A stretch of DNA of 64,000 nucleotides from Vibrio echinoideorum (GTDB lineage Bacteria; Pseudomonadota; Gammaproteobacteria; Enterobacterales; Vibrionaceae), in contig NZ_AP025483.1 in NCBI RefSeq assembly GCF_024347455.1, positions 1,984,001 through 2,048,000 on the forward strand, in the 5' to 3' direction. The notes beneath the pieces were generated by a model. The model was not told the DNA's origin. It searched no databases and worked only from the letters and a program-made list of their open reading frames with translations. A program made the translations under genes and the position numbers. This document shows positions 52,069-52,941 of this stretch, in pieces; positions within the stretch are counted from its first letter, which is position 1, and the number at the start of each line of letters is the position of its first letter.

Positions 52069-52941
52069 ATGAGTTGGTTAGAAAAGCTATTAGATAACAA
52101 AAAGGTAATCAGTACACGTAGAGCGAATATTCCTGAAGGAGTATGGACAAAATGCCCCTCTTGCGACCAGATTCTGTACAGCATAGCCCTTAAAGAAAAT
52201 CTGGAGGTGTGTCCAAAATGCGACCACCACATGAGGATGTCCGCACGCTGTCGCTTAGAAAATTTTTTAGATAATGGCGAGCGAACTGAGATTGGCAGTG
52301 AACATGAACCGAAAGACTTACTAAAATTTAAGGATAAGAAACGCTACACCGAACGCCTGGCTCTTGCTCAAAAGAACACAGGAGAAAAGGATGCGTTAGT
52401 GGCCTTGAAGGGAGAGCTTTTAGGATTACCTGTTGTAGCGTGCGCTTTCGAATTTTCTTTTATGGCAGGCTCAATGGGGGCCGTTGTGGGCGCTCGCTTT
52501 GTTGACGCTGTTGATGCAGCAATCGTGGCTAACTGTGGATTAGTATGCTTTTCGGCTTGTGGTGGAGCGCGCATGCAAGAATCGCTCATGGCTTTAATGC
52601 AAATGGCAAAAACAAGTGCTGCTTTAATGCGACTATCAGATGCAAAGCTCCCTTATATCTCCGTATTGACCGATCAAACTTTTGGCGGTGTATCGGCAAG
52701 TATTGCGATGTTAGGTGATATCAATATCGGTGAACCCAAAGCGAGAATTGGTTTTGCCGGACGTCGTGTAATTGAGCAAACAGTACGAGAAAAGTTACCT
52801 GAAGATTTTCAGCAGAGCGAGTTCCTATTAGAGCATGGCGCATTAGACATGATTATTGATAGACGTGAGATGCGCAAAAGGATTGCAAGTCTCATCGCAA
52901 TGATGACCAATACACGTATTCAAGCTCAACAACGGTACTAA
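52069..52941 (+). CDS. accD: Second acetyl-CoA carboxylase carboxyltransferase beta subunit
   Basis: A 290-residue AccD paralogue. It carries the N-terminal zinc ribbon (WTKCPSCDQ and LEVCPKCDHHMRM), then the crotonase-like core KDALVALKGELLGLP, FEFSFMAGSMGAVVGARFV, CGGARMQES, MLGDINIGEPKARIGFAGRR and SEFLLEHGALDMI. AccD pairs with AccA to move CO2 from biotin to acetyl-CoA. It stops right after the core and lacks the variable tail of normal AccD. Key changes against E. coli AccD: the SASGG segment is SACGG, and VLTDPTMGG is VLTDQTFGG, so Pro201 is Gln and Met203 is Phe (residue 205 here, codon 52681-52683). The start follows AAGG; an upstream in-frame ATG adds seven residues. Chromosomal accD normally sits beside folC or truA, which are absent, so this is an extra copy. 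Confidence 0.92.
   Translation: MSWLEKLLDNKKVISTRRANIPEGVWTKCPSCDQILYSIALKENLEVCPKCDHHMRMSARCRLENFLDNGERTEIGSEHEPKDLLKFKDKKRYTERLALAQKNTGEKDALVALKGELLGLPVVACAFEFSFMAGSMGAVVGARFVDAVDAAIVANCGLVCFSACGGARMQESLMALMQMAKTSAALMRLSDAKLPYISVLTDQTFGGVSASIAMLGDINIGEPKARIGFAGRRVIEQTVREKLPEDFQQSEFLLEHGALDMIIDRREMRKRIASLIAMMTNTRIQAQQRY

Follow-up and report, generated by a model that had tools for sequence, protein, structure and literature searches.

Why does Vibrio echinoideorum carry two genes for the carboxyltransferase beta subunit of acetyl-CoA carboxylase, and what might the second one be for? This second gene, here named accD2, lies in a stretch of 64,000 nucleotides (contig NZ_AP025483.1 of assembly GCF_024347455.1, positions 1,984,001 to 2,048,000; referred to as the window) of a 5.74-Mb genome in 4 contigs, near V. 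splendidus, and is flanked by a divergent gene for a LysR-type regulator. An initial annotation had proposed that it encodes a stand-by subunit resistant to andrimid, comparable to AdmT, the AccD homologue of andrimid producers. Our best reading is that accD2 encodes an AdmT-like resistant subunit, orphan and under LysR control, that non-producers keep, and we put at roughly 60% the probability that the lysR-accD2 pair is a mobile, self-regulated cassette conferring resistance by target replacement. In such a mechanism, once an andrimid- or moiramide-type inhibitor blocks the complex of AccA with the housekeeping AccD, AccD2 would step in for the latter; its changes at residues 203, 201 and 162, which lie within or close to the active site, would lower drug binding; and the divergent LysR protein would bind a conserved palindrome and switch accD2 on, in response either to the drug itself or to a metabolic sign of the block, such as acetyl-CoA. 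The pairing with AccA, the drug tolerance, the induction and its signal are the parts of this scheme that we infer, and protection from neighbouring producers would presumably be its benefit.

The open frame at 52048-52941 holds accD2, with an ATG at 52069 that begins MSWLEK. The 290-residue product passes the curated cut-off of the accD family TIGR00515 (317.45) with 428 and 422 bits in two profile searches and matches the Pfam domains Carboxyl_trans and Zn_ribbon_ACC. Alignment with E. coli AccD agrees with the initial annotation on all of its particulars, namely the loop VLTDQTFGG with Pro201 replaced by Gln and Met203 by Phe, the replacement of Ser162 by Cys (SASGG to SACGG) and the missing C-terminal tail; the zinc cysteines 27, 30, 46 and 49 and Gly204-Gly205 are retained. 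AccD2 thus resembles the housekeeping AccD in its family score, its zinc cysteines and its glycine loop, but departs from it by Gln201, Phe203, Cys162, Ser170, the absence of the tail, its own LysR and its placement in a separate clade. Residue 203 reportedly matters for andrimid resistance, according to the work of Liu in 2008. The primary accD lies elsewhere, at G000:C1:987059-987910, preceded by truA and followed by folC, and has the loop SVMTDPTMGG with Met203; its product is 98% identical to those of strains 12E03 and 10N.286.49.F1. The genome holds these two accD genes and one match to accA, so that AccD2, like AdmT, is additional to the primary subunit. Its closest named relative is from V. 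splendidus 12E03 (91% identity).

In a maximum-likelihood tree of 122 AccD proteins (distinct locus-derived sequences of at least 250 amino acids plus six of 120 listed database proteins, from a search in which scoring was limited to the 8000 best candidates), the 52 sequences with Gln201 are split from the 70 others by a branch with 100/100 support. Among 165 distinct Gln201 proteins, which include database matches, many of them from V. parahaemolyticus, residues 162 and 203 are Cys/Phe in 144, Cys/Tyr in 11, Ser/Leu in 9 and Val/Tyr in 1; at the 47 distinct genomic sites only, the corresponding numbers are 26, 11, 9 and 1. Met203 is absent from all 165, and Ser170 stands in place of Ala in every one of them as in AccD2; the constancy of Gln201 is no finding, because this residue defined the set. 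The 70 other AccDs are Ser/Met (62), Ser/Phe (5), Ser/Tyr (2) or Ser/Leu (1) at the same positions. Within the Gln201 clade, copies with Ser162 and Leu203 branch first and those with Phe or Tyr203 form one later group, whose support of 87/85 is modest and stays below the tool's star; this pattern is suggestive of a change in two steps, the Ser162/Leu203 copies preceding the Phe/Tyr203 group.

What ties this clade to an antibiotic is that it includes the AccD proteins of two andrimid (adm) clusters. Vibrio SWAT-3, a known andrimid producer (PMC3559943), carries three accD genes, the primary one on its contig C133 and two others on C111 and C85, and its third aromatic lyase gene is also on C111. 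The plasmid record of V. coralliilyticus OCN008 names phenylalanine aminomutase, peptide and polyketide synthase genes, LysR and accD, and eleven OCN008 adm proteins are 98-100% identical to C111 translations; the adm cluster of SWAT-3 is therefore located on C111, and the AccD encoded there is AdmT. Both Vibrio adm copies have TDQTFGG and SACGG, as does AccD2, and it is by these Vibrio copies only that AccD2 groups with adm-cluster AccDs lacking Met203. The presence of lysR upstream of admT had already been reported in SWAT-3 and S2052, and the same source describes this Vibrio gene separately from AdmX, which is seemingly restricted to Serratia adm clusters (PMC5216899). AdmT of andrimid clusters (Pantoea; Vibrio SWAT-3, S2052 and OCN008) is likewise an extra AccD, and in the Vibrio clusters it shares with accD2 the divergent lysR, both motifs and the clade. 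It differs in that accD2 stands outside an adm cluster, in a genome where the search suggested by the initial annotation found no andrimid aminomutase (the two aromatic lyases present are 34-35% identical to the aminomutase), and AccD2 is about 75% identical to SWAT-3 AdmT. For the complex of Pantoea AdmT with the AccA subunit, a review gives a half-maximal inhibitory concentration of 500 nM versus 12 nM (PMC6269866). An enterobacterial AdmT was not found in 392 genomes (presumed Enterobacteriaceae, drawn round G629): these yielded one aminomutase-like match, interrupted by a stop, and about 40 kb around it contained nothing else that matches 13 adm-region proteins. A plasmid search with the andrimid aminomutase returned OCN008 first, followed by four Streptomyces records at 67%.

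The cassette is common, mostly in genomes without a high-identity andrimid aminomutase. The exact pattern TDQTxGGVxA occurs in 69 of 329 Vibrionaceae genomes; two of these (G269 and G309, reading TDQTCGGVLA) are not AccD-like and were dropped, leaving 67 genomes with 68 sites, at which residue 203 is Phe (44), Leu (14) or Tyr (10). This count is a lower bound, since the V. barjaei copy (L018), with glycine 205 changed, escapes the pattern. All 67 carriers have a primary AccD with Met203 (extra matches in G301 and G319, which read TDPTTGGVVA, were not counted). A high-identity andrimid aminomutase is present in one of the 67, SWAT-3, all other matches being at most 39% identical, and a family search of 18 carriers found the lyase gene at C111 in SWAT-3 alone. 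Of the gene groups at 20 loci including the window, lysR and accD alone are common to all, other neighbours being shared by few. Mantel tests on 18 cassettes from 17 genomes (leaving out G012 and G015, which have a broken or altered accD2) gave a strong correlation between LysR and AccD2 distances (r 0.83, p 0.0002) and none between AccD2 and host primary AccD distances (r -0.03, p 0.54); without the outlier G006 the coefficients are 0.83 and 0.04. The lysR-accD2 pair therefore moves as a unit. It also extends beyond the Vibrionaceae: one cassette is on a mobilizable plasmid of Pseudoalteromonas donghaensis, another is in genome G511, from a different family of the order, where some 60 kb of surrounding DNA contains no adm match, and relatives are listed for Agarivorans. 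Seven of 394 genomes drawn from the order match the pattern, and one match in this sample (G633) was set aside as probably due to chance. A near-identical copy in the metagenome-assembled genome HF-Dia21 may reflect transfer or contamination. Of the enterobacterial plasmid matches at 67-68%, the two inspected (Serratia, Klebsiella) are primary accD genes in truA-folC surroundings, and the sole viral-contig match (L195) reads TDPTMGG.

This distribution bears on how the pair and the andrimid cluster came together. The two adm copies pair with each other in the tree, their nearest neighbours being V. neptunius S2394 (100/92), V. G157 and Isolate32; the inner fork is weak (97/20), and no high-identity andrimid aminomutase was found in these three neighbours. 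Such nesting speaks for an orphan cassette having been captured by the adm cluster, although loss of the cluster in these neighbours may be an alternative cause. As Vibrio AdmT is nested among orphans, the cassette may predate its place in the cluster. SWAT-3 itself holds, on C85, an orphan copy with window-like FUSC and chemoreceptor genes no more than 12 kb away, rearranged, as judged by eye; its two cassettes are 74% identical in AccD2 and 71% in LysR. That the pair is instead the leftover of an andrimid cluster lost in each lineage would account for its occurrence within adm clusters. We nevertheless consider this highly improbable, for the adm copies are nested rather than basal, 66 of the 67 carriers have no high-identity aminomutase, and the loci examined have ordinary and mutually different neighbours (20 loci clustered; Pfam of 20 neighbouring proteins). 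Less easily set aside, but still unlikely in our view, is the same design aimed at another drug, in which AccD2 would guard against some other natural inhibitor of the carboxyltransferase and the gene would have passed to andrimid clusters later. Several natural inhibitors of the enzyme do exist, including thailandamides and butuanimides (PMC13151354), and both the commonness of the cassette where the andrimid aminomutase is so rare and the nesting of Vibrio AdmT among orphan copies agree with this view; the sole cluster association observed is, however, with andrimid.

The regulator and the DNA between the two genes point to control by LysR. In the DNA examined, 47 of 48 distinct TDQTxGGVSAS sites have a divergent lysR whose product is 64-100% identical to the window LysR, the lone site without it (L159) being a 3' remnant of accD; accD2 in the window also lies without truA, folC or accA beside it, in line with the initial annotation. 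Over 47 cassettes the 66-bp block between the genes has a mean pairwise identity of 75%, whereas accD2 reaches 34% at its fourfold sites and the leader after the block 46%. Its palindrome is exact, as ATCCnA-N5-TnGGAT, in 33 of the 47, and 11 of the other 14 start with G instead of A. From the promoter as read by eye, transcription would start near 52037, which would put the palindrome centre near -62; a position close to -65 is common for LysR recognition sites (PMC11602165). The locus thus shows a LysR protein, a divergent target and a conserved palindrome near -65, the position being that given by the eye-read promoter. A generic promoter scan does not report this promoter, and the scan yields no more promoters than shuffled sequences. 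The window LysR does not reach the cut-off of any of the NCBIfam models listed; its best matches among solved structures are LysR proteins, AccR of Shewanella (9BCE, E 8e-12) being one of them. AccR is described as responding to acetyl-CoA and controlling a divergent carboxylase gene (PMC11602165). The AccR-accS system resembles ours by a LysR gene divergent from an acetyl-CoA carboxylase gene with a palindromic recognition site upstream (PMC11602165), but accS encodes a multi-domain carboxylase, not an AccD copy, and the window LysR is only a distant relative. This kinship speaks for a purely metabolic explanation, in which LysR would sense acetyl-CoA or another fatty-acid signal and accD2 would add carboxyltransferase capacity or a different control, with no antibiotic involved. 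Such a role would also suit the purifying selection under which accD2 is found (ratio of nonsynonymous to synonymous divergence, dN/dS, of 0.06-0.15 in five of seven pairs with relatives; the other two have saturated dS). Yet other LysR structures outscore AccR, the changes in AccD2 sit in the drug-site loop, and the pair occurs in andrimid clusters, is patchy, moves independently of its host and decays in places; we therefore hold a metabolic isozyme to be rather improbable.

Several observations weigh against the resistance cassette. The kinship of the window LysR to AccR fits a metabolic role as well. Both adm-cluster copies have a changed right arm in the palindrome, so that the operator is not identical in producers. 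Nor is accD2 encoded in an andrimid cluster, its neighbours in the window being other genes, which is why we call it AdmT-like and not AdmT. Some copies are broken or altered (the remnant L159, frameshifts in L162 and L176, an in-frame stop in L015 and the changed loop glycine of L018) in genomes where a primary accD is present; accD2 is therefore dispensable in some hosts, and this decay fits a gene retained through intermittent need. Finally, Phe203 also occurs in the primary AccD of Grimontia and Enterovibrio (5 loci) and of all 18 genomes of group g4, and Tyr203 in that of all 8 genomes of group g10; by the TDQTxGGVxA pattern neither group has a cassette, and their primary enzymes are possibly less sensitive by nature. 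Among the matches listed (150 primary sites in 149 of 327 matching Vibrionaceae genomes, residues read by eye), 35 sites in 34 genomes lack Met203 (22 Phe, 12 Tyr, 1 Leu). None of these 34 genomes carries the cassette and all 16 listed carriers have Met203 (hypergeometric p 0.012, a value that takes no account of kinship, 26 of the 34 belonging to two genera). The proposal of the initial annotation is partly supported: comparison shows another accD with Met203 in the genome, no andrimid aminomutase found there, a grouping of AccD2 with the AccD of known andrimid clusters and a divergent lysR as constant partner. Against it, a Phe variant common in the primary AccD of related species, which the initial annotation had named as refuting, is half borne out: Phe, Tyr or Leu203 occurs in the primary AccD of other Vibrionaceae, so this residue alone is not diagnostic. 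The primary AccDs concerned keep Pro201, and Ser162 in all eight aligned, with Thr207 in the five Phe ones; the whole signature of the accD2 clade, as judged from the alignments, is different from theirs.

Taken further, the cassette reading leads to a history that we advance tentatively, at odds somewhat short of even. The pair would be a resistance-on-demand cassette of marine gammaproteobacteria, older than the Vibrio andrimid cluster and later captured by it; non-producers would keep a drug-tolerant subunit at the ready until LysR detects that the enzyme is blocked, for instance through rising acetyl-CoA, and the subunit would have evolved stepwise from Leu203/Ser162 to Phe/Tyr203/Cys162. 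Resistance by a duplicate target, as in AdmT, is already known; what is new here is an orphan and mobile pair with its own regulator. No such orphan lysR-accD pair appears among the listed titles and abstracts on andrimid, moiramide, AdmT/AdmX or duplicate Vibrio accD, a coverage that excludes most subscription papers. If our reading holds, about a fifth of sampled Vibrionaceae species, almost all of them without the andrimid aminomutase, would already possess a regulated and mobile resistance to carboxyltransferase inhibitors, and producers would have recruited their self-resistance gene from that pool. This would bear on the origin of self-resistance genes and on antagonism between marine bacteria, and a duplicated accD taken as a signpost to antibiotic clusters would mostly point to none. 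It also yields a testable claim, namely that this LysR protein may respond to blockage of the enzyme.

Table 1. Features of the lysR-accD2 locus (positions in the window)
Feature	Position	Strand	Basis and remarks
Divergent LysR-type regulator gene	51050..51940	-	Open reading frame, Pfam HTH_1 and LysR_substrate; alternative upstream GTG start at 51955 possible
Conserved operator/promoter block	51967..52032	+	66 bp between lysR and accD2; alignment of 47 cassettes
Imperfect palindrome ATCCCA-N5-TTGGAT, probable LysR recognition site	51967..51983	.	Conservation among cassettes
Probable promoter	52003..52030	+	Weak -35 ACTTTA (52003-52008), 16-nt spacer, -10 TATACA (52025-52030); conserved columns, read by eye
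accD2	52069..52941	+	Open reading frame, start, TIGR00515 above cut-off, Pfam Carboxyl_trans and Zn_ribbon_ACC
Cys codon at E. coli position 162 (SACGG)	52558..52560	+	Alignment; coordinates computed from codon 203, no gap between
Active-site loop VLTDQTFGG	52663..52689	+	Pattern match at G000:C1:2036672, alignment; Phe203 codon 52681-52683, Gln at 201

The immediate surroundings of accD2, apart from truA and folC, consist on one side of lysR followed by HlyD, DUF2955, FUSC and GST genes and on the other of a chemoreceptor gene. The HlyD, DUF2955 and FUSC genes (46470-50776) beside lysR resemble an efflux set, which is not a constant partner among the 20 cassette loci. In another carrier (G344; L208 9613-11217), an aromatic amino acid lyase gene sits some 2 kb from the cassette, with RNA-repair genes on one side and lysR on the other; its product is 31% identical to the andrimid aminomutase, and the locus was not read as an antibiotic cluster because its neighbours are RNA-repair and acyl-CoA catabolism genes. 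The condensation domains of the V. echinoideorum genome were likewise rejected as adm genes; they lie with a TonB receptor, FecCD and an ornithine/lysine monooxygenase in a siderophore-type cluster. Such a set (condensation and AMP-binding proteins, two FecCD permeases, a TonB receptor and a lysine/ornithine monooxygenase) is carried, together with a ParA-like gene, by a 45.7-kb contig of this genome (L184, G000:C4:8001-28000), possibly a plasmid. On the Pseudoalteromonas plasmid (L185 3988-10510), the cassette follows genes annotated as glycosyltransferase, RibA, an asparagine synthase-related protein and arylamine N-acetyltransferase, possibly a small-molecule cluster. In V. furnissii (L013 4226-4882), a pentapeptide-repeat gene (218 amino acids, Pfam) stands directly on the lysR side of the cassette; it could be Qnr-like, in which case two resistance-type genes may adjoin.
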